IMG/VR virus record: IMGVR_UViG_3300040806_002670
Coordinates: 1 to 33,158 of that record
DNA from: a virus
Direction: 5' to 3' (one strand)
DNA: 33,158 bases
Shown: positions 6,621-33,158 of the stretch, in pieces
Numbering within the stretch: the stretch's first letter is position 1
Layout of the letters: every line of letters starts with the position of its first letter
Program-made: the position numbers and the translations under genes
The notes under the pieces: model-generated
What the model saw: the letters and a program-made list of their open reading frames with translations, nothing else
Database searches by the model: none
Told to the model about the DNA's origin: nothing

Positions 6621-6884
6621 CTAGCCGGTGGCGAAGTCAGAGTCGTCGTTCAGCTCAGGGAGTCGGCGCTTTGCCATCTCCGCGACGATGTTGGCAATCG
6701 GGCTGTCTTCCGTTGGCACCGACGTGATTCCGCAATCTTTGAGTCGCTGTCTGATCACGTTCAGATCTGCAGAAGTCGGCTGGACTCTGACGATATTCCC
6801 GTCTCGGTCCATTGTCTCCCGCCCCTCCTCGAGCATGTTGAGAAGCATCTCGTCGAATCTGTCTCCCATGTTCTCGAGGCTCAT
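6621..6884 (-). CDS. Terminase small subunit (T7 gp18-like)
   Basis: 87 residues, almost exactly the length of T7 gp18 (89). The N-terminal part is helical (FDEMLLNMLEEGRETM), and the motif PTSADLNVIRQRLKDCGIT (about residues 36-54) matches the P.AADLN.IRQFLKD..I pattern of small terminase / DNA maturase A proteins. These form a ring that recognises phage DNA and regulates the large subunit. The gene overlaps the giant virion protein stop by four bases (ATGA). Unlike in many phages, it is separated from the large terminase by six genes. Confidence rests on the motif, size and position. Confidence 0.8.
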   Translation of the reverse strand: MSLENMGDRFDEMLLNMLEEGRETMDRDGNIVRVQPTSADLNVIRQRLKDCGITSVPTEDSPIANIVAEMAKRRLPELNDDSDFATG

Positions 6885-9800
6885 TGGATGCCCTCCATAA
6901 TTTCCTGAAGTTGCTGTTGCCTGGCCTCGCCGCCCTCTGTTTCAGAGAACTCAATTTCCTCGATCAGAGCCTGCAGACCATCGCGGGCATCAATGGCGAA
7001 GTCGCTTTGCGGCCCAAAGGCATCTTCCTTGTTGGCGGCGTCCACGGTGGCACGGTCGACCGCGACCTGATTCATGCGCGCTCGCAGAGCCGGGTTGGAC
7101 GCGAGCGTCGCCTTCCACGCGATGCCCTTGTACATGTTGATGGCCTGGACGATTTGCCTCTGGTTGGAGGTCTTGTTGGACACGGGATCTGGCTGATCGG
7201 ACCGGCGAGCCTGATAGTTCGGGTCCTCGAACATCTGCGTCAGGTGCTCCCGCAGAGTCAGGCCCGTGCCGGGATGCTTGACCAGGGCCACATTCCGCTG
7301 CCACTCGACGAATGCGGAATGCACCCCATCGGACGCCGGGATGTCCCGCAAGTCCTGCCCATCCTTGGTCGGACTGATTCTGGCGGGGACCGCCCCAGAC
7401 CTGTAGACCTCAAGCATCACCGGGTCGTCTGTCTCTTGCGAAACCTTTGACACGTTGACCCGGTTCACCCAATTCCAAACCGGGGCCGTGCTTTCGGTTG
7501 CAGGTCGGACCTCTTCGCCAAGGAAGTTGTACCGGGGAGGCACGTTCTCGTTGTCTCCGAGGAACGTCCGGGCATTGAGGAACTCAAGCACACCACGGTG
7601 CTCGCGGACCACGGGATCGGCTGCCTGACTGAATTGCTGTTGGGCTGCAGAGAACGGAACAAACCCAAGGGCCAGGCTTTGAGTGAACCGCTCAAGACCC
7701 TTGTCTGATCGCCTTCTGTCCAGAAGATCCAAGAGCTGGGAGATTCCCTGAATGTAGGACTTCTCGCCCATCTGCGACGCGAAGGTCATGACCATCGCTT
7801 CGCCGAGACCGATTTGCTCCTCGTCGGTGTAGTAGCCGTCCTGAGCATTCATGAGCTGGTGAGTGTCTGCTGCCATGGCAAGGTACTGAGCGAGGGGGTC
7901 CCAGCCGACGTAACTGACGTAGGTTCCGTTTGGCGCCTTGAACGAGTAGGGCCGCCAGCCGGCGTCCATCCAGATCTTTCGCTCTTCCGGATTCAGCGGG
8001 CCAGCACCAGTGATCATGCCTTCCTCTGCAAGAGACATCACTGTTCCAGCAATGACGACGCCAGCAGCCTGCCGGCCACGAGCCTCGGCGACACGTCGAG
8101 GGTCTCCAGAAGCAAGGTCCTCGAGGTGCCGCCTGTGGAAAGCACCAAGGTTTGACGTGTCTGGAACACCGCGGCCCATGTCTGGAAGGTTGAACCCACG
8201 TCCGCGACTCATTTCCATTCCACGAGACATGAGTTCAGCCAAGATGTTGGTGGGCATCAGACTGAAGAACTTCTCTTGGATCTTCCACGGCGTTCGGAAG
8301 AACGGGACGACAAAGCGAAGGACTCCGCCGTACGAGTCAATTCCTCGCTGGATACCAGCGCCCAGACCTTCGAGTTCACCTTGGAATACCGCCCGCGTGG
8401 CGTAGTCCTTGGTGTAGGCGACATTTCTGGCGTGCGTCTGGGTCCACTGATCGTTGTAGTACTCGCGAACTGCCAACGCTCGAGCCAAATCGTCGTCAAT
8501 TGAAGCGATCTCTGGATCGGCCAACGCCTCACGGACAATCTCAGTCTGGTCGCGAATTCTTCCGTCACTGATTGTCTCGTCAACCCGCCGCATGACCTCA
8601 TCCCGCATGCGGTCCTTGTTCCGCGACAAGAACGCTTCAACCTGAATGGGGAGTGGCTCAGGAGGCAAGTCCCCGCTCCGAATCGCCGATTGCACAAATT
8701 CGTCTTCAATACGAGCCGAAAACTCACTGATCAAATGGACACGGCCGTTGAGCTGCCGGAAGAACTCGTCAAAGGTCATGATCATGCGGGAAGGTGAGCG
8801 AACGAAGGTTCCGGTCGAGTTGACGAGGTGCCGAACGATCGCGTTGTCTGACTCGCTCCGAATTGCGACGTGACCCTTTGGAGCGTCGTACAACTGTGTT
8901 CCAGGCATGAGAACGCCCTGTTCTTCCTTGAACGCACGCAGGGCGTATTCAAAGGCGACACCTGCTTGCAATACCATTTCTCGCAGGTTTTGTGCCTCGC
9001 GTCGAATCTGAGTGATGCCCCTGCGGTCGCCCATTGCTCGCATGACTGCGCCGCCAGCGAACTTCATCGACGAATCCAAGGTCATGTTCAGAATTGGCGA
9101 GAACAACGACAGCGTGAACCAGGTCTTCGGCCCCGAAAGAAGGTTGTTGACAAAGAACTCTTTGGCGATGTCGACCGACCGCTGGATCGCCCCGACCTGC
9201 TCAATCTCATTGCGAATGATCTTGCCAACGGCGAAGTAGTCGCGTGGGACCTCCACAAGCGCCAGTCCGTTCATCATGACTTCGCTGTCGGACACCAGTG
9301 TGCCTGGCTTCATTCCGATGCCGCGAAGGAACTCGTCTGCGACCTTCGGGTTCCTCAGCTCGTCTGGGTTGGGCAACTTGACGTTCTTCATGGCGTGACC
9401 TGCCCGGCCCCAGTTGGTACCCGAAGCCGACACTGACGCCTGCACAACCTGATACTCAAGCGCTGCTCTGTGCATCTGAGCGATGTCGAGCGGGTTCATG
9501 GTCGAACGTGCTGTCTTCGCCAAATTCACCAAGCGTTCAGCCTTCATGGTCAGCAGCATGTTGGCAGCCATGATTCTCTGATCAAGCGCGTTGCGACCAG
9601 TCTCTCGCATGTCGACGCCAGAGAGCAGTTCGCCCATGGTGTCGTCGATGTTCTCCATATCGCGACCCATCAGGCCGTTCACTCGCTCAAGAGCCTCACG
9701 AACCATGATGTCGCGGCTGCGGGGCCGCATCAACACATCCGCCTCAAGGAGTTCTCTGGTGAACGCATTGAAGTGAGCGATCAGCTTGAGGGCCTCTTCT

Positions 9801-12800
9801 GGCGTGCTTGCATCGAATCTTTGAGCCATTCGAGGATTGCCATCGACATCCAAGCGTGTCGTGCCGAGGATGTCCTCGGGTTGGATCACGCTCATGATGT
9901 CTTCGCCCTTCTCGTCAGCCTCGGCCATCTTTCGGATGACCGCGTCAAAGTCGGCAACACGAACATAGCGATAGGGGGCGTATCGAACGGGAAGACCAGT
10001 CACCTTGTTCAGGCGATCGAGCAGCGCTGACACCTCCGTGGTGATCGGTACGGTGCCAAGCCTCAGGTCTGTTGAGGCGTCGCGCATTGCGGCCCCAGCA
10101 AAGTCGAATGCCTCTCGGACGGTCGGCGAAAGCGTCGACGAACTCCGGGGGCCGCCTTCCAGCATGTAGGTCATGAACTCGTCGGCGAACCGCTCTTCTT
10201 GGAGCCGCGTCCACTGCCCGTCCCTGACCCCATACAGCATCTCGACCGCTTCGATCTGCTCAAGCGTAAGAACGCCCTGGCCGGCCTTTGCTCGCGGACC
10301 CATTTGCGTCACGCGAATCGCGTGACCCATTTCATGCACGGCCGTCGTCGGGTCCGCTGACCGGAAGAACTTGATCATTGCGATGCCTTCTTCTTGGTCA
10401 ACGACCGCGGCACCGCGTGCTGTCAGCTCTGTGCTTGGCCCTCGGGCGGATTGGTAGAGGGTGGTGTCTGGTCCGAGGTCAGCGCCTGCCTCAGGGGCTG
10501 GATTCGGACCTTCTGCGGCCGCTCGTCGAGTTGCGCCTGCCGCCCCTCCCGCGCCTTCATCTGCCTGTCGAGCGACACCTTCAGTGCTTTCATACCAGGG
10601 TCGTCCGGTCCATACTTCTGCAGCATTCGCTCGTACGCTTCCATTCGCATCGACGATCTCCTCGGGGCTGACCCCTCTTCTTCCGACGATCATGGTATCG
10701 ACCGCTTGGCCGTCGACATCCACGACTCCATCCATGATAGCGAGTTCACGTTGGAACTCGTCGAACTGATCGAACCTTGCCCGCATTCCCGCCGCCGGAT
10801 CGCCTGAGCCGCGTATTGCGGCGCCGGAAGGCGACAGTTCTGGGACGTCAATGAACCGAAGACCAGTGATCGTTTCTCGTTTGGTGGTGCGAGCGCCTGC
10901 CGTAGCGGTGGAGATCGCTTCGACGTGCAGATTGTTCTTCTGCGCGTAAGCCAAGAACTCGCCGATGTCATCGCTGCTTCGAGCGTTGTCGAAGAACACC
11001 TCGACCATTGGACGTGCGTTTGGGTTTCGCGCTAGCAGCTCATCGAGTGGGATATCAACCACGTTGCCCGCAGAGTCGAGCTTGTCAAGTGCGAGGTAAC
11101 GATGCACAAGCACGTCCTCGCCAGACTCTTGGCTTAGGCGTGCAGCCAAAGCCATGGGGGAAGCCATGGTCGGCTCGGCCTCAAGCGGATACTCGACCTG
11201 CTTTTTGCTGATGACCTCTTCTTTGGTCATCAGGTTGCCGTCATCGTCAACTCGTTGTTGGCCGGTCTCTGGATCAATGTCCGGCACTCTTCGCTTGCGT
11301 GGCAGCACTTCGCCGGTTTCTACGTCTCGCAGGGCGTCCTTGCTGCGGCCGACGTCAACACGCTCGAGTTCGCCACTGGTCAACCGATCAACATCTTCTG
11401 GGCGAGCCGGCCGCATCCGATCTTGCTTGCCAAACTGACGACCCAGCGTCATCTCGACATAGAACGGAGTGACACCGGGAAGGTTCCCAGTGTCAAGAGC
11501 CGAATAGCTCATGATGGTGCTATCTGCGCCCAACACCTGATCAGAAATTCGGGTCGCAGTTGTGACATCAATCATGGTCGGCGTCGAAACGCCAACACGG
11601 CCAGGCATGTCGGTGATCATGTCTGCAGCCATGTCGGTCTCAAAGTAGCCCATGCCCTGCACGGTCTGCCGATTTCCGAGGTACTTGTCGGTCTCGTAAT
11701 CGAATGACCCACCAGTGCCGGCCTCATTGGTCCAGTTGTTTCGAGACCATAGCTCTTTCTCTTTGAACCACACCAACGCCTGAAGGTCGTCGGGCCGCAT
11801 GTCGGCAAACGGATTGGCGTCGTATCCGAGCTCCTTGAACCTTTCCGCTGGCATTTCTCGCAACTCTTTCGCGGCGAGATCAAACACCTGCTGTCCCATG
11901 CCAAACGCTTGAGTCGTCGCTCCAGCGTCATCACGGATGTCTCCACCCATGCGGCCAACCTGCGGCAAGGTCATGAAGTTGCCGACGACCGCCTGCTCTG
12001 CAGGAGGCGGCAGGCGTCGAGAGCCAGCCAGCCGGTTGAGGGTCCTAGCGGCCCACACGTCGATCGTGGCAGCTCTGGTGTCTCCACTCAGGTTGGAGGC
12101 GAAGTTGAACGCCTTTGGCGATCCGCCGGCAACAGCTTCTTGATTGGCTCTGATCTGAAGAGTCTCGATTGCGTTCAGCAATCTGACATCGTCTTGCGAA
12201 AGATCAAGGCCCTGATCTCGGCGAATCCACGCCTCGCGAAGATTCACAAGCGCCTGCTGAAACTCTGGACTTTCCTTCTTCCCACCGAGTCCAAGGTCTG
12301 CCGGCGTAATCAGCCCGCGCTCACCATAGGAGACAATGTCCTCAGGATCGAGCACAGCACGGCTGTACCGTGCATTGAGCCAGTGACCGGCCAAGGTGTC
12401 CATGACCAGGCCGCCATTAGCACCAAACCGCTTGAACGCTTCACCAGAAGAATCAGCCGGGCCGATTACACCATTTTGGAAGATGATCGGGTTGTTCGAC
12501 GTCTTCCACTGATCAAACGTCCCGCCGGCGTCGCGGAACTGGATGTAGTCGTCAAGCAGCCTGTCGTAACTGCCGCGGCTGTAGTTCTGAATGATGTCGA
12601 CTGTGAATCGGAAGTTCTGCCCGACAGCGGTCTGTGGGCTAGTCGCGCCGAGCATTTCCGAAAACAACTTGTGCAGGTTGCCGAATTCGCGACGCAGCCT
12701 CCGCCGCATTGTCTCGTACCAGCCGCGGGCCGCCATGATGGTCTTGCCAGCCGAATCCGTTCGTAGGGACGTTTCAAGAACTTCGCCGACAAGCTTTCGA

Positions 12801-14713
12801 GCCAACGAGTTTGTCCGTCTGTTCCAGAGGGCCGGGTTCGCCTCACGGTCAATCACCGGAGAACTTGCGTCCTTCGGGTTTTCGCTTGCCCACGAATAGG
12901 TCCTGCTGCGGAACTTCAGGTCAACCTGCGGGTTCCCAGATTTGTCCCGCCGGAGCAGGCTGGTTCCAGCGATCCGCTCGCCCTTGCCATTCCTTTCGGC
13001 CGGAAAGATGAACTCGACGTCAAGCTTCTCCCAGTCCGAGAGTGGGAAGTCCTTGAGGGTTTCACGAATCCGGTTCTCAATGAAAGCAACGTCCTTCTTG
13101 CTCAGAGCGTGGCGTTCTTGCAAAGTTGCGATCTGAGACCGAATATCTGTGTTGAGTTTGCCCTCGCCTCGGACACGCTCGGTGGAGCGCTGGAATGCAG
13201 CACGATCGTCCTGAGGCCTGGTCGATTGGTACAAGACCATGTCGGCCTCGGCCGGAAGGTTGTCCGTGATCATGAAGGTCCGGTTCGGATCCGTGAAACG
13301 GACCATTGCCCGAACATCATCAAGGCTCACGCGGTTCTGAAGAGGCCCGGCCTGAATCGCTTCGTGAGTCGCTCGAGCAAACGCCTCAACAATTCGCTCG
13401 GTCTCGTTCTTGCCATCAACGACTGGGGGGAGTTCTTCGTCGACCTTGGCGACGATCTCGAGCACGGTCATCTCAGGATTATCGCGAGCAAGTGCTGTCG
13501 CTCTTGCGTTCCTAGCCATGAACCGCGCGGCTAACGAGTTGATTTCTTGATTCAACTCTCGTGACGCTGGCGCGTCAAACACCGCCCACGGAAGCGCGTT
13601 CGGATCTGAGGCGGTCTCACCAAGCGGCGACACTCGAGAAAGCACACCCTCTTTCTCAAGGAAGTTGATTCGCAATCCCTCTTGCAAACCCTCCATGATT
13701 TCCTTCGCACCACGGCCGTACATGCGGCCAGAATGCAACAGGCCACCGAGCATCATGAAGCTGCTCTTCAGACCTAAAGGTACGGCGACCTCGCCGATTG
13801 CGGCACCCTCGACCGCTTGCAAGAATCGAGCGTAGAGTTGATCCCCCGTTTCCTGGTACGCCGCACGAGAGTCCATCACCTTGAGGTACTCATCAACTGC
13901 GGAGTTCGGGAAGAACTCTCTGATTGCGGTGGCGATGTTCCCGTTTCGAGGATCAAATGTTGCCGCGTCTGCGAACGCTCCAGCCATCGTCGACGCGGCG
14001 ATTGTCCGTGATGCACCGCCAACACCAGCAATTCGCGTTGCAGGACCGCCTGCTAACAGGAACCCGGTCGTGAACTGCGAGATGCCCTCGGCAAACTGCC
14101 CGGCTATGGCGCTGTCGCCATAGTCGACGCGAGTGTCTTGGGGGTTCGGAAGTTCATCTAGGTCCCAGCCACCTAGGCTGGCAACCAGATTGATCATGTT
14201 GAGGTTTGCGTTTCTGACGCCCTGGCCAATGCCAGCCGGGATGTTCAAGTATGGGAGGTCGGCAACCGACTGCGCCCATGGAGTGCCGCTGCGGTAGAAC
14301 TCCGAGTAGTTGTACATCCAGCTCTTCAACCACTCGGTGGCTGGCTGCTCATAGATCTGCCGGATGATGCCGGACTCGCCGAGAGCCTTGTCTGCGAACT
14401 GCTCAACTTGCTGCTCGCGAATGAGTTCTCTTTGGTTGGCGAGGTCCTCTTCCATCGACACCCCGCCAATTGTCGGGCCGTCTTGCGGTTGGACCCCACC
14501 AATCTCTGGCGTGATGACGTCGGTCGGCATCCGTACACCAGCATCGTCGGCTCGGTCTTGTTCCTTGACGGCATTCTCAAGGTACTGCACTGCCTCTCGC
14601 CGGTCAGTCAACTTCTGCCCACGCATGGTCTCTTCAATGAGCGCGTCAGGAAACGGCGTCGCCGATGGGGGCAACAACTGCTGCTGACCTTGGTTGCTGG
14701 GGATCTGACTCAT
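6881..14713 (-). CDS. Giant internal virion protein (T7 gp16-like position) with putative zinc metallopeptidase domain
   Basis: 2610 residues, about twice T7 gp16 (1318), in the gp16 position. Residues about 110-320 have hydrophobic helices (NLNMINLVASLGGW, FTTGFLLAGGPATRIAG) and an FPNSAVDEYL region typical of ejected virion proteins. A middle region (about 660-1000) contains MLGATSPQTAVGQN and ATIDVWAARTLNRLAG, as seen in large polyvalent phage proteins. A gluzincin-like motif HEMGH lies at 1460-1464, with a downstream E in EERFADEF (1506-1513) as candidate third ligand. The C-terminal third (about 1840-2610) has NNLLSGPKTWFTLSLF and VPFFRTPWKI, a pattern common in phage ejection proteins. 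Two LYQS motifs (494-497, 1419-1422) sit in linkers. No lytic transglycosylase motif is seen. It probably enters the cell with DNA. Confidence 0.85.
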   Translation of the reverse strand: MSQIPSNQGQQQLLPPSATPFPDALIEETMRGQKLTDRREAVQYLENAVKEQDRADDAGVRMPTDVITPEIGGVQPQDGPTIGGVSMEEDLANQRELIREQQVEQFADKALGESGIIRQIYEQPATEWLKSWMYNYSEFYRSGTPWAQSVADLPYLNIPAGIGQGVRNANLNMINLVASLGGWDLDELPNPQDTRVDYGDSAIAGQFAEGISQFTTGFLLAGGPATRIAGVGGASRTIAASTMAGAFADAATFDPRNGNIATAIREFFPNSAVDEYLKVMDSRAAYQETGDQLYARFLQAVEGAAIGEVAVPLGLKSSFMMLGGLLHSGRMYGRGAKEIMEGLQEGLRINFLEKEGVLSRVSPLGETASDPNALPWAVFDAPASRELNQEINSLAARFMARNARATALARDNPEMTVLEIVAKVDEELPPVVDGKNETERIVEAFARATHEAIQAGPLQNRVSLDDVRAMVRFTDPNRTFMITDNLPAEADMVLYQSTRPQDDRAAFQRSTERVRGEGKLNTDIRSQIATLQERHALSKKDVAFIENRIRETLKDFPLSDWEKLDVEFIFPAERNGKGERIAGTSLLRRDKSGNPQVDLKFRSRTYSWASENPKDASSPVIDREANPALWNRRTNSLARKLVGEVLETSLRTDSAGKTIMAARGWYETMRRRLRREFGNLHKLFSEMLGATSPQTAVGQNFRFTVDIIQNYSRGSYDRLLDDYIQFRDAGGTFDQWKTSNNPIIFQNGVIGPADSSGEAFKRFGANGGLVMDTLAGHWLNARYSRAVLDPEDIVSYGERGLITPADLGLGGKKESPEFQQALVNLREAWIRRDQGLDLSQDDVRLLNAIETLQIRANQEAVAGGSPKAFNFASNLSGDTRAATIDVWAARTLNRLAGSRRLPPPAEQAVVGNFMTLPQVGRMGGDIRDDAGATTQAFGMGQQVFDLAAKELREMPAERFKELGYDANPFADMRPDDLQALVWFKEKELWSRNNWTNEAGTGGSFDYETDKYLGNRQTVQGMGYFETDMAADMITDMPGRVGVSTPTMIDVTTATRISDQVLGADSTIMSYSALDTGNLPGVTPFYVEMTLGRQFGKQDRMRPARPEDVDRLTSGELERVDVGRSKDALRDVETGEVLPRKRRVPDIDPETGQQRVDDDGNLMTKEEVISKKQVEYPLEAEPTMASPMALAARLSQESGEDVLVHRYLALDKLDSAGNVVDIPLDELLARNPNARPMVEVFFDNARSSDDIGEFLAYAQKNNLHVEAISTATAGARTTKRETITGLRFIDVPELSPSGAAIRGSGDPAAGMRARFDQFDEFQRELAIMDGVVDVDGQAVDTMIVGRRGVSPEEIVDANGSVRANAAEVWTGRPWYESTEGVARQADEGAGGAAGATRRAAAEGPNPAPEAGADLGPDTTLYQSARGPSTELTARGAAVVDQEEGIAMIKFFRSADPTTAVHEMGHAIRVTQMGPRAKAGQGVLTLEQIEAVEMLYGVRDGQWTRLQEERFADEFMTYMLEGGPRSSSTLSPTVREAFDFAGAAMRDASTDLRLGTVPITTEVSALLDRLNKVTGLPVRYAPYRYVRVADFDAVIRKMAEADEKGEDIMSVIQPEDILGTTRLDVDGNPRMAQRFDASTPEEALKLIAHFNAFTRELLEADVLMRPRSRDIMVREALERVNGLMGRDMENIDDTMGELLSGVDMRETGRNALDQRIMAANMLLTMKAERLVNLAKTARSTMNPLDIAQMHRAALEYQVVQASVSASGTNWGRAGHAMKNVKLPNPDELRNPKVADEFLRGIGMKPGTLVSDSEVMMNGLALVEVPRDYFAVGKIIRNEIEQVGAIQRSVDIAKEFFVNNLLSGPKTWFTLSLFSPILNMTLDSSMKFAGGAVMRAMGDRRGITQIRREAQNLREMVLQAGVAFEYALRAFKEEQGVLMPGTQLYDAPKGHVAIRSESDNAIVRHLVNSTGTFVRSPSRMIMTFDEFFRQLNGRVHLISEFSARIEDEFVQSAIRSGDLPPEPLPIQVEAFLSRNKDRMRDEVMRRVDETISDGRIRDQTEIVREALADPEIASIDDDLARALAVREYYNDQWTQTHARNVAYTKDYATRAVFQGELEGLGAGIQRGIDSYGGVLRFVVPFFRTPWKIQEKFFSLMPTNILAELMSRGMEMSRGRGFNLPDMGRGVPDTSNLGAFHRRHLEDLASGDPRRVAEARGRQAAGVVIAGTVMSLAEEGMITGAGPLNPEERKIWMDAGWRPYSFKAPNGTYVSYVGWDPLAQYLAMAADTHQLMNAQDGYYTDEEQIGLGEAMVMTFASQMGEKSYIQGISQLLDLLDRRRSDKGLERFTQSLALGFVPFSAAQQQFSQAADPVVREHRGVLEFLNARTFLGDNENVPPRYNFLGEEVRPATESTAPVWNWVNRVNVSKVSQETDDPVMLEVYRSGAVPARISPTKDGQDLRDIPASDGVHSAFVEWQRNVALVKHPGTGLTLREHLTQMFEDPNYQARRSDQPDPVSNKTSNQRQIVQAINMYKGIAWKATLASNPALRARMNQVAVDRATVDAANKEDAFGPQSDFAIDARDGLQALIEEIEFSETEGGEARQQQLQEIMEGIQ

Positions 14714-16659
14714 TGAGAGGTGCTCCTTGTTGGCCTCTGACGCCGCTTGTACTGATCTTCAGAGTAGAACTGACCGTCAGTGGTTGCTCTTTCCAGATAG
14801 TTTGCCGACTCCTCTGCGATCCACTGCTCCTGCGCCCCTCGGAAGGCTTGCGGGTCTTCCGTCCGCAACGAGAGGTTAGTGCCGAGCCATTTGGTGTAGT
14901 CCGCACGAAAGTCCATCAGCAGCGTGTTGAGACCTCTGACCCAATTTGGATCGACCTGCTTGTTGACTGGGACAACCTCAAGGTCCATGTCAAACCGCGG
15001 TTGAATCCCAAGGCCGGCACGGAATGCCTGCTCCAGCTTCGTTCTGGCTTCTCGGAAAACAGGGGCGTCGTACTCTGGCTGAACATCGTCAAGGATGCCA
15101 GCCTGTGCGATCAGCGACGTGTGCTGAGACAGCGTGATGTTGCCAGCCATAGCGGCTTGAGCAACATCTTCGCGAAGGTAGGCCCTCCGGGCGGCAACGG
15201 TCTCGATACTCCGAAGCGTCACAAGCAGATGGTTCGCGGCCTTGTTCTGGTCGACTTCCGCAACTTCCGTGCGGTACTGCTTGGAACCAGCGAGCTTCAG
15301 GAACTCATTATAGATCGAGTAGCCGTCCTCGCCGTATTTGCCGACGAAGAAGCGTCGAAGCTGTTGCTCATAGCCTGGGTCAGCTTTGGAAATAGTTGTC
15401 GGCTGCCCGTCAATTGTGACGTTGATTGCACCTTCTGACAGCAACCGAATGCCTGTGAGCATTCCCTGATAGTCGTTCTCTTGACGTCGCTGTTTGATGG
15501 TTTCCTCTGTTGCTTCCGCAAGTTCAATGCGCATGGCTCGCTCGCCGATCAGCGTAAACGCAGGCCCGAACGGATCGACCTGCTCCTGCATACTCTGCAG
15601 CCGCCGCAGAAGCCTGGCCGGATTGAACCGTGGATCCACCTCAAGTCCATTCAACGCCACCTCAAGACGATTGACCTGCCCGTCGGTCGGTTCGGTTCCT
15701 GGGCCGAACATGACCTGAAGAGGCCCTTCAGGAGCGAACACGTCACTTCGGATTTCTCTGGCAAGCACTCTTTCGGCCGAGTCTAGGAACGCTCGCTCGC
15801 CTTTGCCGAAGGTGTCATACCACTTGGCGTCGCGTTGATTCTCTGGGATTCCCCCAAGGATTCGGCGAGCGTGCTCATACCTTCCTGCAGCAACAGCAGT
15901 CTCGGCCGCCTCATACAGAACGCCGCGAGCCTGCGAACTGTTGAGTGGCTCGAAGCCCTGATCGTTTGCGGTGATGCCGATCAGTTCAGCGGGCGACGGC
16001 GGCGAAGCGTCTGAGGCCGCAATGTCGCTGGCGAGATCGCTGCGGAGCATCGTCTGCCTAGCCGCTTCCCGGCGGTTCAGCCACGCAAGCCCTGCCTGCA
16101 CAGTAGGCGTAAATGCTTCCTTGTAGTACGCCTGCCTTGCCTCATCGCTCTGCAATTGCAAGAGAGGACCTTGCAACTGGCTCGCCGTCCACGCGGTGAT
16201 GCCAGCAGGGCCATCGCCACCAGCCTCATCAATGAACTGCAGGATCTGTTCCTCGACCGTGAGCGGTGGCACGCCCTTGGTGGGGTCGCCGGCACGAGCA
16301 ATCGTAGTGTCGAGGGTGTCGTCATCGAAGCCAGACTTGAGCATCACAGCGTCAAACCGGCCGGCCTCAGTTCCAGCCCCCCGCTCTGCTCTGTCCAACG
16401 CCTCTCGAGTCTGTCGAGCCTCGCTTTCTGTGCGGCGGAGCCTCTGCTCCTCAAGGGCGGCCTGCCGCTGGCGGATCGTCCCGTACTGGTACATGGACGT
16501 GCCGATCAGGTTGAGTGATCGGGAGATGCTTTCAAGGTCTGCGACGTTGGGTCGGTAGACAACTGCTTGGAAATTCGGAACAGTGACGTTTGCCTGCGAA
16601 AGTTGAATCGCAAACGGATCCATAGGCTGGATCGGCTGGCCCATGTTTCTATTGGACAT
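14710..16659 (-). CDS. Internal virion protein (T7 gp15-like)
   Basis: 649 residues (T7 gp15 is 747), between the gp14-like and gp16-like genes as in T7. It is mostly helical, with long Glu/Arg/Gln-rich segments such as RQAALEEQRLRRTESEARQT (about residues 64-83) and repeated ALNGLEVDPRFNPARLLRRL-type helices. No enzyme motif is seen. T7 gp15 forms the tube through which DNA and gp16 pass during ejection; that role is assumed here from position and size. The ATG at 16659 is chosen because GGGGAG lies seven bases upstream. It overlaps the previous gene by 11 bases; a longer frame to 16737 has no ribosome site. It overlaps the giant gene by four bases. Confidence 0.8.
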   Translation of the reverse strand: MSNRNMGQPIQPMDPFAIQLSQANVTVPNFQAVVYRPNVADLESISRSLNLIGTSMYQYGTIRQRQAALEEQRLRRTESEARQTREALDRAERGAGTEAGRFDAVMLKSGFDDDTLDTTIARAGDPTKGVPPLTVEEQILQFIDEAGGDGPAGITAWTASQLQGPLLQLQSDEARQAYYKEAFTPTVQAGLAWLNRREAARQTMLRSDLASDIAASDASPPSPAELIGITANDQGFEPLNSSQARGVLYEAAETAVAAGRYEHARRILGGIPENQRDAKWYDTFGKGERAFLDSAERVLAREIRSDVFAPEGPLQVMFGPGTEPTDGQVNRLEVALNGLEVDPRFNPARLLRRLQSMQEQVDPFGPAFTLIGERAMRIELAEATEETIKQRRQENDYQGMLTGIRLLSEGAINVTIDGQPTTISKADPGYEQQLRRFFVGKYGEDGYSIYNEFLKLAGSKQYRTEVAEVDQNKAANHLLVTLRSIETVAARRAYLREDVAQAAMAGNITLSQHTSLIAQAGILDDVQPEYDAPVFREARTKLEQAFRAGLGIQPRFDMDLEVVPVNKQVDPNWVRGLNTLLMDFRADYTKWLGTNLSLRTEDPQAFRGAQEQWIAEESANYLERATTDGQFYSEDQYKRRQRPTRSTSQ

Positions 16660-17215
16660 CAGTCGGCTCCCCAGTTGTTGCCAGCCCTTGGGTTGCCCCG
16701 TAAACCGAGATCCCCGTCGAGAGACCGCCCATGGCACCAGCGAACACCGACAGGAACGGATTCCTTTGCATCGCGGCTGCTTGATCCAGAGTCGCCCTGA
16801 GAGAAGCCTGGTTGTCGATGAGACCTGATTCCGTCTGCGACTGAAGGGTCGTCATATCAGTGTTGAAGTTCTGGGCAATTGTCGCTTGGAGGGCGTCGCG
16901 ACGGCCTTCAAGATCAAGCAGGCTCCGCATCTCGGTCCCGGAGAAAGCTGTGGTGCCCTTGGCAGCAGACGCCGCGATTCGAGCGCCTCGCTCTATGACC
17001 GCCTGCCGGGCGACCTGCAACCGTTGCTGATCAGACTTGCGGGCGATCGACTGAGCAAGGACAGCCTGCCGTCGCTCGAGATACTCGCTTTTGCGTGTTG
17101 CCGTGATTTCTGCCGATTGCCTGGTGCGGCGTGCGGCTTGATTCTGCCGATTCGCTTGCTCTGCAGCCACCGCCGCTGAGGCGATCATGAAGACGGGGAT
17201 TGCTGCTGCTCCCAT
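16649..17215 (-). CDS. Internal virion protein (T7 gp14-like)
   Basis: 188 residues (T7 gp14 is 196). The N-terminus is hydrophobic and Ala-rich (AAAIPVFMIASAAVAAEQAN). A long Arg/Gln/Ala-rich amphipathic helix region follows (residues about 20-90), and the C-terminus is Gly/Ala-rich (FLSVFAGAMGGLSTGISVYG). This is the pattern of gp14-type proteins, which are released first and form the outer-membrane pore for DNA ejection. The ATG at 17215 lies two bases after the tubular B stop, with GGAG five bases upstream. Assignment rests on size, composition and position rather than on a catalytic motif. Confidence 0.8.
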   Translation of the reverse strand: MGAAAIPVFMIASAAVAAEQANRQNQAARRTRQSAEITATRKSEYLERRQAVLAQSIARKSDQQRLQVARQAVIERGARIAASAAKGTTAFSGTEMRSLLDLEGRRDALQATIAQNFNTDMTTLQSQTESGLIDNQASLRATLDQAAAMQRNPFLSVFAGAMGGLSTGISVYGATQGLATTGEPTDVQ

Positions 17216-17217: not shown

Positions 17218-19623
17218 CTACTCCAGATTCGTGCTGTGCTTCCCGTGATACTCGATACCCGTGATCGTCACTGGGTAGGAGTTCGAGGATTTGATGGTGA
17301 TGGTCAGATCTCTTGGCTGCCCGAAGATAGGCACAGAAAGCCTGCCAGTGTCGACCGACGTCGCGGCCTTGCTCACAGTCCTTGTCGGGACCGCCCCAGA
17401 ATGCGTCGCGTCGATCTCAACGTCGTACGGACCGGACGAGGTGTGGGTCACAATCATCTTCTGCAGCGATATCCGGCCACCCTCGATGGGTTGGTTCTGG
17501 GGCGACCGCATGAACACCTCGCCAAGCTCAAGGTCCATGTCCCACTTGCGGCCGAGCACAACCGCGGTTCCGACCTCGCCAGTGATCGTGACCTGAGTAC
17601 CGTCGCCATTCTGAGTCACCGCGTACTCATTCCCAGAACTGTCGACAGCAGTGTCTCGAGTCAGATCTGTTTCCTCAGCAGTGAGCGTGAACGTCGTCTC
17701 GCCGTCGCTCGCAGTGCCGGTTTTTTGAATCATATGGTCAAGATGAACCTCGCGATCAAACCCAACAAAGTCCGGGCTACGCGACCCGCCAAGGTTGAAA
17801 CGGTCGATCTTTAGTCGCGTCTCAGAGTCTGCAAGAGATGTCTGTCGTCTCATGAGAAACAGTGAGTCATCGATCGTAAACATGTCCATGAGAGCGTCGC
17901 CAGCGAACGTCCACTTTGACCACGCCGACTGAACTCGATCGCTTCCATTGAATCTTGTGCGGTAGATGTACAGCTCTGAAACGATGCCAGACGGATTCTC
18001 TGATGCTTGGAAACCAGGAGGCGTGTAGTACCCGTCGAAAGTCACGACATGTGTATCGGTAATGATGACATCGTCGTCCTCTGTCGGCGGATCGGCGTTC
18101 TCCCAGGTCGCCAACTCGACGTACTTGTCACTTCCGTCAAAGTCGCCAAAGGTGTCCAACACGGACACTTTCACAGCACCACCGATGATGTCGCCAGTGG
18201 TAGCCGGAAACACGATCACCTGCTCGTTTGTCGGGCAGGTGTCGATCCGCTTGATGTCAGGTGGAATCAGCGTGTCGACATGCTCGGAAATGATGCGGGC
18301 GGTGTTGGTCGCGAATGTCTCCTCGTAGTAGTACTCAAGGAATGAGCTGAACTTGTCGTTCGTCCCGGCCATGTACAGGCGGTTGCCGATCATCGCTGGC
18401 CTTGCGAGCTGGGTGTCGTAGGCAGTGCTCTGAGTAATCGCTGCCGTGTCAGAGCTGAACACGCCGTCCACGCGAAGCTCAAACTGCCTCCCGGCCTTGG
18501 TGAGAACGACAAGGGTGTTCCGGAACGGCGTGACGTTTTCAATGATGTTGACGTCGGTCGCGGATATTTGCAGCTCGATTGGGTCCGCCGCGGTCGGCGC
18601 GATCGGAGAAGTCAAATAGAACTGATAGACGTCATCACTGCGGGAGAACGCAAGGTACTCATCGCTGGCAAAGCACAGACGATTGCGAAAGAAAGTGATG
18701 TCTCGGATTGGGAGGTTGTTCCTGATGAACTGCGGTGCAGGATCTCGTTCGTTTGACCCACGCTCTACAGAATAGGTAGCGGCGTTCGGCTGCTGGCTGA
18801 TCGCGATCAACTCGTCGACTTCAAGGTCATTCGAGATGTTGATGTAGATGTCTCCCTCTGGCAGCGGCCCGCCTGTGCAAATGACCTTTCCATACGGGAA
18901 AGGGTCAAGTCCAAGATTGGTGGAACCACCATCACCCTGTAGAGCAACTTGCACTTCCTCAGCAGATGCGTTGTAGGGGATATTGTCGGTAGTGTAGTTT
19001 GTGCTGCCTGGGCTGTACCGAAGTCTGAAGCTTCCATTGATTCCAGAGTTGTCGCTTCCACGAAGGACCTGTTGGTAGAAACTCCGCTGCCCGAAAGGTG
19101 TCAGGTCAACAGTGAACTCAAGCGGCGATGTTCCGGTCCGTTGCATTTGGATCGGCATTGTCGTGGCATCGATCTGAGCACCGCTGGAGTTGGTGGCGGT
19201 GGGCTTTTTCGTGTTCACAATGAACGTGGTGTCTGCGACGGTCACAAACCTGAGGTCGTCCACAGTGGCGCCGTTCTCGCCAAGGTAGTCGGTCGCATCG
19301 TTCTGGACTACCACCGTTGCGGCGGACCCGTCACTTAGGTCGATGACCTCAAGAAAGAATCCGCCGGCCTTCGGGCCGTACACAACGGCGTACTCTTCAT
19401 CGTCGTCGCGCTCGATTCGGTGCATTCGGTAGGTGCTGTTGGATTGCACGCCAGCAATAGACGCGATGGTCCGCCCACCCGGCCGCTTGCGAGCGCCATC
19501 GACCACGGTGAAGTCGACATTTTCCGCATCAGCAACCTGAGCCGGGAATCGAAGAGAGGCCGCTTGCTTGCTGATCCCCTGATTCAGAGAATTCACCTTG
19601 AGGACAAGAGGCTGTGTCGTCAT
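17218..19623 (-). CDS. Tail tubular protein B (T7 gp12-like)
   Basis: 801 residues (T7 gp12 is 794), beta-rich throughout. The N-terminal LNQGISKQAASLRFPAQVAD resembles the opening of gp12-type nozzle proteins (xGGVSxQP...R.P.Q...). The central NLPIRDITFFRNRLCFASDE followed by YLAFSRSDDVYQFY is the family hallmark (P....FFQNRL.F...E.V..SR..D..NF). The protein forms the distal nozzle of the short tail, where fibres meet the tube. The ATG at 19623 overlaps the previous stop (ATGA). It stands directly after the two tubular A homologues and before the gp14-like gene, as in T7. Confidence 0.95.
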   Translation of the reverse strand: MTTQPLVLKVNSLNQGISKQAASLRFPAQVADAENVDFTVVDGARKRPGGRTIASIAGVQSNSTYRMHRIERDDDEEYAVVYGPKAGGFFLEVIDLSDGSAATVVVQNDATDYLGENGATVDDLRFVTVADTTFIVNTKKPTATNSSGAQIDATTMPIQMQRTGTSPLEFTVDLTPFGQRSFYQQVLRGSDNSGINGSFRLRYSPGSTNYTTDNIPYNASAEEVQVALQGDGGSTNLGLDPFPYGKVICTGGPLPEGDIYINISNDLEVDELIAISQQPNAATYSVERGSNERDPAPQFIRNNLPIRDITFFRNRLCFASDEYLAFSRSDDVYQFYLTSPIAPTAADPIELQISATDVNIIENVTPFRNTLVVLTKAGRQFELRVDGVFSSDTAAITQSTAYDTQLARPAMIGNRLYMAGTNDKFSSFLEYYYEETFATNTARIISEHVDTLIPPDIKRIDTCPTNEQVIVFPATTGDIIGGAVKVSVLDTFGDFDGSDKYVELATWENADPPTEDDDVIITDTHVVTFDGYYTPPGFQASENPSGIVSELYIYRTRFNGSDRVQSAWSKWTFAGDALMDMFTIDDSLFLMRRQTSLADSETRLKIDRFNLGGSRSPDFVGFDREVHLDHMIQKTGTASDGETTFTLTAEETDLTRDTAVDSSGNEYAVTQNGDGTQVTITGEVGTAVVLGRKWDMDLELGEVFMRSPQNQPIEGGRISLQKMIVTHTSSGPYDVEIDATHSGAVPTRTVSKAATSVDTGRLSVPIFGQPRDLTITIKSSNSYPVTITGIEYHGKHSTNLE

Positions 19624-20856: not shown

Positions 20857-21540
20857 TTACCCAAACATTGCAATTTGAATGTGTTTGACAGACGAGAAGC
20901 CAGTGAAGAAATACCACCCACCAAACAAGTCCACTCGCGCGTTGCTGCCGTGGTTGAACCACGGCTTGATAGGCAGGACGTTGCTGCTCGAGTCAAGATA
21001 GTTGACAAAGATGGGGAATCGCCTAGCGAGCAACTGTGGATTTAGGTTCACTCGGATTGTGGACTGGAACCCGGTGTCGCCGGTAATTGACACGGACGAG
21101 ATACCTACAGCGTTGGTCAATGTGAAACCAGGGTCGCCGGTAGTAAACCTGTATTGGTTTCCGGATGTTTGAATGTCTTTGGCCGTTCCAAGTGTGATCA
21201 AGGCGTGAAGCCTGACCCTTTGGTCATACGCCTCGCCGCCGATAGTCAACGAACCAACAGACGCGCCGCCGCTTACAGACAACGAACCCGAAGAAACAGA
21301 GCCAGACGAGCTGACGCCAGTGCAGTTCACTGTTCCAGCGTCGATGATATTGCCGCCGTTCAGATCAAGACTTTGACCAATCAAGCCGGATCCGGCCGTG
21401 ACGTTTCCAGTCGCAACGATGTTGCCTTGACCAGTCAACGTGCCAGTCGCCGTGAGAGTTCCGCTCACTACCGTGTCTTCAGCCAGGGTCACTGATGAAG
21501 CAGCGTTGGCTTCGATCGTGTCGACACGGAGCGTGCTCAT
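20857..21540 (-). CDS. Tail fibre protein, short form
   Basis: 227 residues. The start MSTLRVDTIEANAASSVTLA matches the N-terminus of the 505-residue fibre (MSTLKVDTIAANTTGTV), a common virion-attachment opening of phage fibres. Residues about 25-105 are a repetitive Gly/Ser/Thr shaft (GTLTATGTLTGQGNIVATGN, SSSGSVSSGSLSVSGG) typical of beta-helical or collagen-free triple fibres. The C-terminal 115 residues form a non-repetitive beta-rich head with several aromatics (PWFNHG, GGWYFFTGF), probably the receptor-binding or capping domain. The ATG overlaps the dockerin gene stop (ATGA), tying the two in translation. Confidence 0.82.
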   Translation of the reverse strand: MSTLRVDTIEANAASSVTLAEDTVVSGTLTATGTLTGQGNIVATGNVTAGSGLIGQSLDLNGGNIIDAGTVNCTGVSSSGSVSSGSLSVSGGASVGSLTIGGEAYDQRVRLHALITLGTAKDIQTSGNQYRFTTGDPGFTLTNAVGISSVSITGDTGFQSTIRVNLNPQLLARRFPIFVNYLDSSSNVLPIKPWFNHGSNARVDLFGGWYFFTGFSSVKHIQIAMFG

Positions 21541-22100
21541 GGCTCTTGATCTCCAGGATCAGGTGAAGGGGCAGTCCAGCCCCATTGCGTGTTCAGAATT
21601 CCAAGGTCGCTCCCGTCGACGGTTCCGTTCCAGTCGAGGTCGGATCGCTGGGCGTCAGTTCCCCAGTCGGCGAACAGGAGGCCGCGATCCTCGCCGTTGA
21701 CCTTGCCGTCCTCGTTGATGTCACCCACGGGATACAAGCTGATCGCCCAGTCGATCGGCACGACCTCCGTCTGGAGCGGCCCGACAGCAGTCTTCCACTG
21801 GGCGACGATCAGCTTCTGCGACCACTCCCAGCAGACCTCTCCGTCTGTCACCACTGGCTTCTTGCCGTCTGGAATCTTCCACCGCATCTGGAACGTGTGA
21901 AGCCGGTTCGAGGCCGTCTTGTTTTCGGTGGTGATCTCTCCTTCCATCTGCCACTCCCAGTCGGTGGTCTCGATGGTGTAGATCACGTCGGTCTTCTTGG
22001 TGGCATTATCGTCGTGGGCTTCTACCACCCAGATCCCGTCGAGAAAGAGTCGGGTGGACTGCATGGCGGTCAGGGCTACTGCGCAGATCGGGACTTGCAT
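21537..22100 (-). CDS. Dockerin-type I domain protein in the fibre block
   Basis: 187 residues. The C-terminus carries two calcium-loop/helix repeats of dockerin type: GDINEDGKVNGEDRG (126-140, Asp/Asn at 127, 129, 131, 135, 138) leading to LLFADWG, and DLDWNGTVDGSDLG (154-167) leading to ILNTQWG. The pair is 27 residues apart, the normal dockerin arrangement. The N-terminal 120 residues are beta-rich and aromatic (DWEWQMEGEI, VCWEWSQKLIV), with a weak hydrophobic start that might be a signal peptide. GGAG lies eight bases before the ATG. Dockerins bind cohesin modules in cellulosomes, and Planctomycetota encode very many such domains of unknown purpose. Location between fibre genes suggests a virion adhesin or a calcium-stabilised structural module (inference). 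Confidence 0.82.
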   Translation of the reverse strand: MQVPICAVALTAMQSTRLFLDGIWVVEAHDDNATKKTDVIYTIETTDWEWQMEGEITTENKTASNRLHTFQMRWKIPDGKKPVVTDGEVCWEWSQKLIVAQWKTAVGPLQTEVVPIDWAISLYPVGDINEDGKVNGEDRGLLFADWGTDAQRSDLDWNGTVDGSDLGILNTQWGWTAPSPDPGDQEP

Positions 22101-22116
22101 TCCTGATTCTCCACAC

Positions 22117-22132
22117 TTTCTCGAACGAGAAA
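22117..22132 (-). promoter_or_regulatory. Small hairpin just upstream of the dockerin gene
   Basis: The minus strand reads TTTCTC GTTC GAGAAA, a perfect six-base stem with a four-base loop, ending about ten bases before the GGAG of the dockerin gene. It follows directly after the larger hairpin at 22136-22166. It could affect translation initiation or mRNA processing. Confidence 0.5.
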
Positions 22133-30104: not shown

Positions 30105-30660
30105 GTCCGTTCTCCAGTAGGTATCGGCACAAGGCCGGGGGATTCCACGGTTCTTTCTCGAAGACTACGCCCACTCGAGCAAGGAACACAAGAGCCACGT
30201 CTACGCAGGTCTCAACCCGAAGGGGCCTCCATCTACCGCCTGTACAGAACATCGCTAGATGTGATACAAGAGCCTGAGTTGTTGTCGTCTCCTGCACGCA
30301 GGCTGATCCTGCAGTCCAGTCGGAAGCCCAAGACCAAGGAATGGGGTTGGCCGCGAATTCAAAGCAGCCGACGACACCCTTGTAGCCTCTGGCAAATGCC
30401 CGCACTGGGTAGATCGTGGTGTGTGTCCACCCGACGTCAAGCACGGTCCCGCCATGCTCAAGCAAGATGTGTCGGCAGCGAGTGTCAAACCAACGGCCGA
30501 CCAGCTCTGTCCCGCCAACCTGCGTGAGCCACTCTGGATGTTTCCGCCACCAGCCTGGTTTCAGGCGTGAGGTGACATGCGACAAACGCACACCCTCAGC
30601 GAACCAGACACGAAGTGTTCCATTGTCTGGAACGCTGGCATCAGGAGAAGAAGTACTCAC
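30046..30660 (-). CDS. Unknown protein, 204 residues; possible permuted papain-like fold
   Basis: A GTG at 30660 has AAAGGA nine bases upstream and overlaps the polymerase end by 20 bases; an ATG at 30693 without a ribosome site would give 215 residues. The protein contains VWFAEGVRLSHVTSRLKPGW early, several Trp-rich strands, and later RVETCVDVALVFLARVGVVF followed by PWNPPALCRYLLENG. A histidine (H28) before a cysteine at the start of a helix (C152) recalls circularly permuted NlpC/P60-like thiol proteins found near podovirus portals. The match is by pattern only and the catalytic third residue is not identified. Confidence 0.65.
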   Translation of the reverse strand: MSTSSPDASVPDNGTLRVWFAEGVRLSHVTSRLKPGWWRKHPEWLTQVGGTELVGRWFDTRCRHILLEHGGTVLDVGWTHTTIYPVRAFARGYKGVVGCFEFAANPIPWSWASDWTAGSACVQETTTTQALVSHLAMFCTGGRWRPLRVETCVDVALVFLARVGVVFEKEPWNPPALCRYLLENGHVWHPRLSALPAEDCRRAD

Positions 30661-33046
30661 TGTTGCGGATCCTTTCGAGGTCAAGGTTCCCATACTTAGG
30701 AGGCAATGGGATGTCGGCCGCCGGGTAGATGTCAGCCCACCTGGTGCAGATCCTTGAGATCTGGTCGGCGCCGTGCATTTGGATCATCGTCTCTGCCAGC
30801 ACCTGCTTCAATTCATCCGCGTGTTCCGCATGCGTCCACGCTGAATCATGCACGCCGGCAAACGCCCGCTGGCGTCGCCGCATCTCAATCGCAGTCATGC
30901 CGAGGTGTGCCCCATCCCAAGAGTGAACGATGTTCGGCGGCAAGCCTTGCTTCTGCTTGGCCTTGTAGACCGGGCAGTCTTCGGTGATCTCTAGAAGGTT
31001 GACCTCCTGCAATGCTGTCCGAACCTTGCCAGTCCTTCCTTTGCGGTACGGCTGCACTGCCGTGAACCCCAGCGGTGTGGGCCACTCAATCGCACGGTTT
31101 GGGTATGTCTCGTTGATTGCTTTGGCGGACGCCTCGATCCAACGCATCACCTGCTGCGGCCCGCTGAAGACATGATCAATGGCAGACCGAACATTCGCTG
31201 CCACATATGGCGCCACCAGCCTCGCATCGTCCTTTGCCACTCCTCGTGATCGGAGTTCGTCGCGGATCTGGTTGCGCATACCGACAAAGGTCACGTTGTA
31301 GTTCGAGGTCATCACTGGCTGCTTGACAAGCTTGCGGTCAAGGTGCGGCATTGCAAGCCTTGCCACTTCTTGTGTGTCCGCGGCCACGTTCTCAAGCACA
31401 GCGCGAAGAACTCTGGAGTAGGCGTCCATCGGCTCTGCGGTTGGGAGCAGGTTCACCCATTTCCCACCATCCTCGTCGCGGCTGGCCGCACAGTAGTGCT
31501 GCATGCCGTTGCAAGTTCCATCGAGCTGGACCGGCAAGCGTTCCCCGTACTCGTCATCGCACAAGGCGAAGCACGCCGCCAGGAACTGCCACGGCTCATC
31601 CGCCTTGCTCCACAGATCGATGGTCCGAATCGGGTCCTCATAGATCCGTCGAATGTCTGACCGCATCTCAATGATTCTGGCGTCCCGCGCATCAAGGCTC
31701 ATCTTGTCCAAGCCCCAGCAGTTCGCCGCATGGATGCGAAGCCACCGCCGGCCAGCCTCGGTCAGCGGAACCGGCTCGGCAAACAGCATGAGCGACCGAG
31801 GGACGTCGTGGCCGTGGTGGTTGAGATGCAACGGGATCGGGTAGAACCTCCCGCGGAAGTCGATCTGGTGCGGTAGATACCACTGCCCAAATCCCCGCAT
31901 TCGCTCGGCCACGCCAATCGTCTGCACGAACTCGGCTCTCCAGCCGGCGTTCTTCGAGTTCACAGTGTGGACCGCATGGGCCTCGGACTTCCACGCCTTG
32001 AGCACCTCTTCCGATTCGTCAATGCCATCAGGCCTAGGTGGCAGCGGCACCTTGTCGGCCGGAGGGATCTTGCCAACGCCCCCACCCATCTCAGACCAAA
32101 CGACCTGCATCACCTCGGCGACTCGGTCATTCACGGTCCACGCCGTCGCATTCATCGCGTTCATGGCCTCAAGCAGGCGGCCATGGTCCGACTCTCGAAC
32201 CTTGCGGGTTTGCTCCTTTGTTGGCTTCGCGATCAGAGGCGTGCGAACCTTGACGTACCCACCCTCGGCCTTGTCACTCCACGGGTAAGGCTCGACCACC
32301 ATGGGCAGAAACCTCGGTCGCAACTCAGACCGAAACGCATGCCCGTCTTCGATGACCTGATGGGCGGCGTCGGTCAGTTGAATGGCGCCGACTTTCTGAT
32401 TGTTATGCCAGATCTTGACATGCTGGAAAGCCCGCTCCCACTTCCTGTCGACCTCGAGCAGGCACGTCTCGATTGCAAGCCTCGCCATGCAGGAGCCTGT
32501 AGCAATGCAGCCTCGGCGATTCCAAACCGGCTCTTCGAGGACCTGCTTCGCGAACTGGTTCAGGCGGCGAGGCGTCATCCTCCGGTAGCGATTGGCGATG
32601 CGGTTCCAGTCGCATTCATCATGTCGCTGCAGTTGCTCGGCGTGGATCTCCGACACTACCGCATTGCCGATTGCGTAGAACCCACGCACAACCAGGTCCC
32701 CGTTCGGTTCCAGCAAGCATCGACCCAGCATGCTGTGCAATGTGATCACCGCAAGCTTGTCTGCCTTGAGCGACATGACGATCGGGCCGTGAAGACGGCG
32801 GCCTCTCGCCGATTGTCCCGCAAGGATCTGCCGCTGCTCCTCTCGGATTGCCTGCCGCAACGGCTCAAACCAGTAGACCAACAGCCGCTCGACCGGCTTG
32901 AGGCTGGCGGCGTCGCCACGCTCGGTCGCTTCACGAACCAGTTTTCGGTATCGCTTCACGCCAGCGGAGATCGCGTCGATCTCAAGTTCTACTTGCCGAC
33001 CAAGGTGTGAGCCGGCGACGATGTCGCCAATTTCAAGGGGTGCCAC
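30641..33046 (-). CDS. Single-subunit DNA-directed RNA polymerase (T7 gp1-like)
   Basis: 801 residues (T7: 883). Palm and finger residues are all present: motif A DGTCNGMQHYCA (D509, equal to T7 D537), O-helix R571, K575 and Y583 in KQPVMTSNYNV (T7 R627, K631, Y639), and motif C AGVHDSAW (H733-D734, T7 H811-D812). NIVHSWDGAHL is also conserved. The C-terminus LPPKYGNLDLERIRNSEYFF resembles the T7 foot. The polymerase transcribes the late genes from phage promoters. The GTG at 33046 has GGAG seven bases upstream and overlaps the preceding gene by 14 bases; a TTG at 33103 lacks a site. In place of T7 A638-Y639-G640 it has N-Y-N. Confidence 0.95.
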   Translation of the reverse strand: MAPLEIGDIVAGSHLGRQVELEIDAISAGVKRYRKLVREATERGDAASLKPVERLLVYWFEPLRQAIREEQRQILAGQSARGRRLHGPIVMSLKADKLAVITLHSMLGRCLLEPNGDLVVRGFYAIGNAVVSEIHAEQLQRHDECDWNRIANRYRRMTPRRLNQFAKQVLEEPVWNRRGCIATGSCMARLAIETCLLEVDRKWERAFQHVKIWHNNQKVGAIQLTDAAHQVIEDGHAFRSELRPRFLPMVVEPYPWSDKAEGGYVKVRTPLIAKPTKEQTRKVRESDHGRLLEAMNAMNATAWTVNDRVAEVMQVVWSEMGGGVGKIPPADKVPLPPRPDGIDESEEVLKAWKSEAHAVHTVNSKNAGWRAEFVQTIGVAERMRGFGQWYLPHQIDFRGRFYPIPLHLNHHGHDVPRSLMLFAEPVPLTEAGRRWLRIHAANCWGLDKMSLDARDARIIEMRSDIRRIYEDPIRTIDLWSKADEPWQFLAACFALCDDEYGERLPVQLDGTCNGMQHYCAASRDEDGGKWVNLLPTAEPMDAYSRVLRAVLENVAADTQEVARLAMPHLDRKLVKQPVMTSNYNVTFVGMRNQIRDELRSRGVAKDDARLVAPYVAANVRSAIDHVFSGPQQVMRWIEASAKAINETYPNRAIEWPTPLGFTAVQPYRKGRTGKVRTALQEVNLLEITEDCPVYKAKQKQGLPPNIVHSWDGAHLGMTAIEMRRRQRAFAGVHDSAWTHAEHADELKQVLAETMIQMHGADQISRICTRWADIYPAADIPLPPKYGNLDLERIRNSEYFFS

Positions 33047-33158
33047 GCACAATCTCCGTAGTGACGAATCGTGTCCCCTTCTTCTTGACGACGTGCAAGT
33101 CAAGCCTTGCGTACTTCACCCAGAGTTTCTTGTCCCGTTTGAACTTGGCCGTCTCGAC
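33033..33158 (-). CDS. C-terminal end of an unknown gene (partial)
   Basis: The minus strand is open from the right edge for 41 codons, ending TTEIVRGTP and a TGA at 33035-33033. The visible peptide is Lys/Arg/Val-rich (FKRDKKLWVKYARLDLHVVK). The polymerase GTG lies inside its last codons, so it is the gene immediately upstream in the same operon. Too short to assign. Confidence 0.6.
   Translation of the reverse strand, partial: VETAKFKRDKKLWVKYARLDLHVVKKKGTRFVTTEIVRGTP

Follow-up and report, generated by a model that had tools for sequence, protein, structure and literature searches.

A giant T7 gp16-type ejection protein with a putative zincin metallopeptidase and a predicted HhH-GPD-like domain among its inserted cargo

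Background

Zincin metallopeptidases are the commonest domain of phage polyvalent proteins, for which self-processing or the targeting of host proteins has been proposed (Iyer et al. 2017, PMC5512222). Iyer et al. sorted these zincins into 12 clades and linked the example from phage N4 to lethal factor (PMC5512222). The ejection proteins of T7-like phages form the second group to which the present locus has to be compared. In T7, the region between the two membrane segments of gp16 is presumed to be cytoplasmic (PMC8954989). The N-terminal transglycosylase is phage-specific, being found in T7 and not in P22-type phages, and does not define the wider family (PMC8954989). Here we describe a virus record from IMG/VR, IMGVR_UViG_3300040806_002670, analysed over its full 33,158 bases (called the window below). 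One of its genes encodes a 2610-residue protein in the position of gp16. Its inserted central region contains a putative zincin peptidase and the domain DUF7178, whose predicted fold resembles N-glycosylases of the HhH-GPD superfamily.

Results

A gp16-type protein with an inserted region

The open reading frame at 6881-14713 begins with ATG, lies on the minus strand and takes up 7833 of the 33158 bases of the window (23.6%). The initial annotation, made from the sequence alone, had rightly described the gene as filling almost a quarter of the window and its 2610-aa product as twice the length of T7 gp16 (1.98 times 1318 aa; T7 length from PMC8954989). The gene and its parts are as follows.

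6881..14713, minus strand: whole gene, 2610 aa, gp16-position ejection protein with cargo
13685..14212, minus strand: N-terminal segment, residues 168-343, homologous to CRP-114 gp40
9803..13684, minus strand: cargo region, residues 344-1637, between the two gp16-homologous parts
11684..12961, minus strand: DUF7178 domain, residues 585-1010, predicted HhH-GPD-like N-glycosylase fold
12059..12115, minus strand: Lys867 to Asp885 (KAFNFASNLSGDTRAATID), invariant pair in the register of K120/D138 of E. coli endonuclease III
10430..10573, minus strand: linker rich in Ala, Gly, Pro, Asp and Glu, residues 1381-1428, directly before the peptidase
9989..10426, minus strand: gluzincin-like metallopeptidase domain, residues 1430-1575, predicted from alignment, AlphaFold2 (AF2) model and structural alignment
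10322..10336, minus strand: HEMGH, residues 1460-1464, with H, E and H invariant in 83/83 aligned sequences
10193..10195, minus strand: Glu1507, predicted third zinc ligand, invariant in 83/83
7124..9802, minus strand: gp16 core, residues 1638-2530, common to Roseobacter, Pelagibacter and cyanophage internal virion proteins

The C-terminal part of the protein matches phrog_6651, 'internal virion protein' (E 4e-34), and tblastn yielded matches to internal virion protein D of Roseobacter, Pelagibacter and cyanophage podoviruses, including CRP-114, HTVC and P-SSP7 gp16. Gp40 of Roseobacter phage CRP-114 (1334 aa) aligns only to residues 168-343 and 1638-2414; because it has just 199 aa between these parts, we regard residues 344-1637, about 1,290 aa, as inserted cargo. 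Hydrophobic stretches occur in the N-terminal segment (residues 228-248 and 293-329) and in the gp16 core (residues 2216-2236). Three full-length homologues, designated L117, L103 and L135, are 2557-2570 aa long, share 39-43% identity with the window protein and keep both its architecture and the two peptidase motifs. HExxH is absent from CRP-114 gp40 and CRP-804 gp34. Pfam searches with the complete sequence and with segments of it recognised no lytic transglycosylase, in agreement with the initial annotation, and the search with segments gave no assignable domain for residues 1010-1380. A profile of the gp16 core searched against PDB sequences returned apolipoproteins only, which we judged spurious.

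An identical 2610-aa protein is encoded by IMG/VR contig 3300040960_002739 (19,844 bases), apparently from the same or a near-identical phage.

The metallopeptidase domain

HEMGH is the sole HExxH sequence in the 2610-aa protein (0.015 expected from composition); both it and EERFADEF (residues 1506-1513) lie where the initial annotation had placed them. Searches with the domain as a single sequence gave no match in Pfam, NCBIfam or PDB sequences and only the identical contig in viral_contigs; the wider family came into view only with an alignment to which three phage relatives contributed. These relatives, Bordetella phage BPP-1 Bbp10, Cobetia phage Carin1 gp32 and Caudoviricetes sp. vir555_00054, align weakly around the motif, and all of them stand in the same cassette slot. 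In Carin1 gp32, from a cultured phage, the motif reads HESGH, at position 1638. A profile of these three and the window domain retrieved 80 viral loci, and almost all of these encode giant proteins. Recruitment of a locus required just one of two patterns, the HE motif or the Glu motif, and each motif therefore tests the other: HExxH is present in 46/46 relatives that only the Glu motif had recruited, and the Glu in 26/26 that only the HE motif had recruited.

H1460, E1461, H1464 and E1507 are invariant in the 83 aligned sequences, although these are divergent, with overall identity of about 18-28%. The initial annotation had named loss of the motif in close homologues as an observation that would speak against a peptidase; L117, L103 and L135 retain it. 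Such conservation argues that the motif is not a product of chance. A third zinc ligand had been sought in EERFADEF, and there E1507 stands as the predicted ligand because its competitor is not conserved: E1512 is replaced by Gly in 65 of the 83 sequences and was ruled out.

The AF2 model of the domain has a core pLDDT of about 90-95, with HEMGH on model helix 36-52 and E1507 on model helix 84-99. Its best structural alignments (VIA) are to anthrax lethal factor and PPEP enzymes (Z 5.7 to 4.2), and further HExxH peptidases appear among the next rows. No Pfam peptidase model matched well to the 69-member peptidase family. The embedded HExxH metallopeptidase that the initial annotation had proposed is thus well supported by conservation and moderately by the modelled fold, which resembles HExxH zincins. 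We place the domain among the zincin peptidases that occur in injected polyvalent proteins of phages; the initial annotation had omitted that this peptidase type was already described there, as well as the second cargo domain, DUF7178.

DUF7178 and its predicted fold

Many other giant phage proteins contain a segment that matches residues 545-1009, and 47 of the 48 members of this group match Pfam DUF7178, a family of unknown function. For the AF2 model of the domain (pLDDT 84.7, pTM 0.78), the 14 best VIA rows are all N-glycosylases of the HhH-GPD superfamily (Z 7.9-5.9), to which we take QNG1 to belong: QNG1/DUF2419 aligns with Z 7.9 over 225 residues, followed by OGG1 (6.7), bacterial OGG (6.2) and MUTYH (5.9). 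The next, unrelated row has Z 4.2. Judged from the model, DUF7178 looks like a member of the group formed by QNG1, OGG1 and MUTYH. Viral structure matches of the same model include proteins annotated as ART-PolyVal, inorganic pyrophosphatase and 'large polyvalent protein associated'.

Lys867 and Asp885 are invariant in the 48 DUF7178 members. In the AF2 model Lys867 starts one helix and Asp885 directly precedes the next, and the spacing of 18 equals that between K120 and D138, the catalytic residues of E. coli endonuclease III. L117 and L103 have an 11-residue insert between the corresponding positions. We found no earlier report of DUF7178 as HhH-GPD-like and, in the open-access literature, no paper on DNA glycosylases as cargo of polyvalent proteins; Iyer et al. 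(PMC5512222) do not mention DNA glycosylases.

Association of the two domains

Both domains occur together in 28 proteins, and the peptidase is C-terminal to DUF7178 in 26 of them. In a non-redundant set of 27 complete DUF7178 proteins, this peptidase is present in 10 and a different HExxH in 3, and the remaining 14 have neither. The two domains are thus often paired, though not obligatorily: six records with DUF7178 relatives gave no match to the peptidase profile. In L131/L132 (4828-11287), DUF7178 forms a separate 1065-aa gene directly upstream of a 1030-aa gp16-like gene. This arrangement reads as a split version of the window architecture, as would be expected if DUF7178 travels with ejection proteins.

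The DUF7178 giant proteins of L127, L138, L157, L168 and L173 contain HExxH sequences outside this peptidase family (such as HEFFH, HEAWH and HEMWH), which suggests that different peptidases are paired with the same DUF7178 domain.

The virion cassette

The window is a T7-like (autographivirus) virion cassette with the 2610-aa gene in the gp16 slot. Every virion or polymerase gene that could be recognised is encoded on the minus strand. These comprise the genes for the T7-type RNA polymerase, the head-tail adaptor, scaffold, capsid, tail tube and nozzle, the gp14-family protein, the gp15-position protein of 675 aa, the 2610-aa protein, an exonuclease and the large subunit of terminase. The single-subunit RNA polymerase marks the phage as autographivirus-like. 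The neighbours that bear on the assignment are listed below.

14710..16737, minus strand: gp15-position protein, 675 aa, assigned by position; homologues lie upstream of the gp16-like gene in L117, L103 and L135
16649..17215, minus strand: T7 gp14-family internal virion protein (PF24072, E 4e-8)
17218..19623, minus strand: tail nozzle protein (PF25675, E 7.5e-92)
30641..33103, minus strand: T7-type single-subunit RNA polymerase (phrog_414, E 2e-178)

The 3' end of the gp15-position gene overlaps the start of the 2610-aa gene, which is the last of the nozzle-gp14-gp15-gp16 cassette. The order nozzle, gp14, gp15-like gene, 2610-aa gene and exonuclease is common to the window, L117 and L135, and the shorter L103 keeps the order gp15-like gene, 2610-aa-type gene and exonuclease. 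This position, together with the homology to internal virion protein D, bears out the earlier designation as an ejection-type protein. Pfam recognised no lysozyme or transglycosylase in the gp15-position protein (14710-16737).

The muralytic enzyme used by the phage for entry was not recognised among the proteins of the record. About five genes lie between capsid and tail tube (window 20857-25565, minus strand). The proteins at 23416-24933 and 20857-21540 have a common N-terminal motif S-T-L-[KR]-V-D-T-I; the former also has a weak bactofilin match, and the protein at 21537-22100 a weak dockerin match. The block probably encodes fibre or decoration proteins, which would be unusually placed for a T7-like phage.

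Discussion

Proposed mechanism

We propose that polyvalent cargo has been inserted into an ejection protein of T7 gp16 type, that this cargo is delivered to the cytoplasm and that self-cleavage frees its enzymes, a reading to which we give roughly even chances. The protein would be packed in the virion, leave it with gp14 and the gp15-like protein, and help to build the tunnel for DNA; delivery along with the phage DNA is suggested by the homology to gp16. With a hydrophobic stretch in each, the two gp16-homologous parts would traverse the inner membrane, and residues 344-1637 would thereby end up in the cytoplasm. By analogy only, the hydrophobic stretches 228-248, 293-329 and 2216-2236 may flank the cargo as the membrane segments flank the corresponding region of T7 gp16. 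In the peptidase, H1460, H1464 and E1507 are predicted to form the zinc site, with E1461 as general base. Placed between a flexible linker and the gp16 core, the enzyme would most likely cut nearby and so release the cargo enzymes from the membrane-anchored ejectosome, after which the glycosylase-like domain might act on nucleic acid or nucleotides.

A bolder version, which we consider possible though doubtful, takes DUF7178 to be an injected HhH-GPD N-glycosylase, spliced into gp16 and freed by the peptidase, that would strip bases, within minutes of the start of infection, from DNA, RNA or nucleotide signals of the host or of a rival.

Several results weigh against these proposals. For both models Foldseek found nothing significant in the PDB, and VIA Z values are all below 8. 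Pfam gave no match for the peptidase up to E 10, MPTase-PolyVal included, and its HhH-GPD model matched 0 of 48 DUF7178 members, with no PF00730 match in the record. The top hhalign placement against Nth does set K867/D885 on K120/D138, but with p 0.22 it is not significant. The same peptidase also occurs in giant proteins where DUF7178 was not detected, and its role therefore need not concern the glycosylase. Finally, N4 virion RNA polymerase (vRNAP), which has a comparable peptidase domain, is packaged unprocessed (PMC5512222), and the peptidase may therefore act elsewhere or not at all.

Alternative roles of the peptidase

The peptidase most likely either frees cargo by self-cleavage or cuts a host protein; the initial annotation, too, had listed processing of the polyprotein and the cutting of host regulators as possible roles. 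If a host protein is cut, it would be an effector directed at, for example, a defence or transcription factor, while the glycosylase-like domain would attack host nucleic acid or nucleotides. Host targeting is among the options of Iyer et al. (PMC5512222). The M34-type zincins, structural neighbours of the peptidase model, are substrate-specific proteases, and the lack of the motif from CRP-114 gp40 and CRP-804 gp34 of related marine phages is what an accessory, host-specific function would predict. Processing nevertheless fits better with the presence of the peptidase in many giant proteins with varied partners, C-terminal to the glycosylase in 26 of 28, and we give an effector role a little over one chance in four.

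Processing could instead take place while the virion is assembled, with nothing but fragments of the protein being packaged, as proposed for DdrB of phage P1; we consider this rather unlikely. P1 DdrB is cleaved before packaging (PMC5512222), and a chain of 2610 aa has roughly double the size of T7 gp16; still, N4 vRNAP is packaged intact at 3500 aa, and if cargo and gp16 core were separated before packaging, each fragment would need its own means of retention in the head. We find it less likely again that the HExxH domain has no catalytic activity and serves the ejection protein only as a structural element. The HExxH domain of N4 vRNAP is not known to be active, and the structure paper on that polymerase, where it mentions the motif, reports no protease function (PMC12633501), but invariance of H, E, H and E in 83 divergent sequences is hard to explain unless metal is bound and catalysis takes place.

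That the peptidase opens the cell envelope in place of a missing lytic transglycosylase, one of the roles offered by the initial annotation, would suit the failure to recognise a transglycosylase or lysozyme in the 2610-aa protein or its gp15-position neighbour, but is most improbable, given that the block containing the peptidase is inserted between the two membrane-associated gp16 parts and is predicted to face the cytoplasm, and that BPP-1 has the same peptidase type plus a separate annotated transglycosylase in Bbp11.

Should the bolder version, with DUF7178 as an injected base-removing N-glycosylase, be true, a new class of enzyme would join the phage injection arsenal. Polyvalent cargo is seen here inside a T7-type gp16, whose position after ejection is worked out for T7, and where and when the cargo acts therefore becomes testable. 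DUF7178, a family of unknown function present in many giant phage proteins, gains an enzymatic hypothesis with two named putative catalytic residues.

Comparison with known systems

The nearest named polyvalent zincins are BPP-1 Bbp10, Carin1 gp32 and vir555_00054. Like them, the window protein is a giant multidomain protein in the last slot of an ejection-protein cassette, with HExxH and a conserved Glu on a later helix. Further domains of Bbp10 are LPD22 and PBECR1. The peptidase of the window protein is divergent, however, being 23-25% identical to those of the three relatives over the domain, and its setting is a T7-type gp16 core in place of a BPP-1-type protein. With T7 gp16 and internal virion protein D (CRP-114 gp40, P-SSP7 gp16) the window protein shares synteny, the C-terminal core and an N-terminal hydrophobic region. 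It differs from CRP-114 gp40 in having about 1,290 residues instead of 199 between the homologous parts, and has no recognisable transglycosylase. The C1 domain of N4 virion RNA polymerase offers another injected giant protein with a zincin-like domain and local similarity around HExxH, but the N4 cargo is an RNA polymerase and the profile similarity is weak (hhalign p 0.02, single pair).

M34-type zincins (lethal factor, PPEP-1, PPEP-3) provide the best structural matches of the peptidase (Z 5.7-4.2, not significant in Foldseek), with no sequence similarity detected. M34 peptidases have a catalytic Tyr seven residues before the Glu ligand, whereas residue 1500, seven before E1507, is Gln in the window protein. 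As for DUF7178, endonuclease III, OGG1, MUTYH and QNG1 resemble it through its fourteen best structural matches and the Lys/Asp pair in the same register; it is set apart from the HhH-GPD N-glycosylases by long insertions and by giving no significant sequence match to them. The window peptidase is a further case of a theme already in print, and beside this enzyme of known type the HhH-GPD-like reading of DUF7178 is the less expected result.

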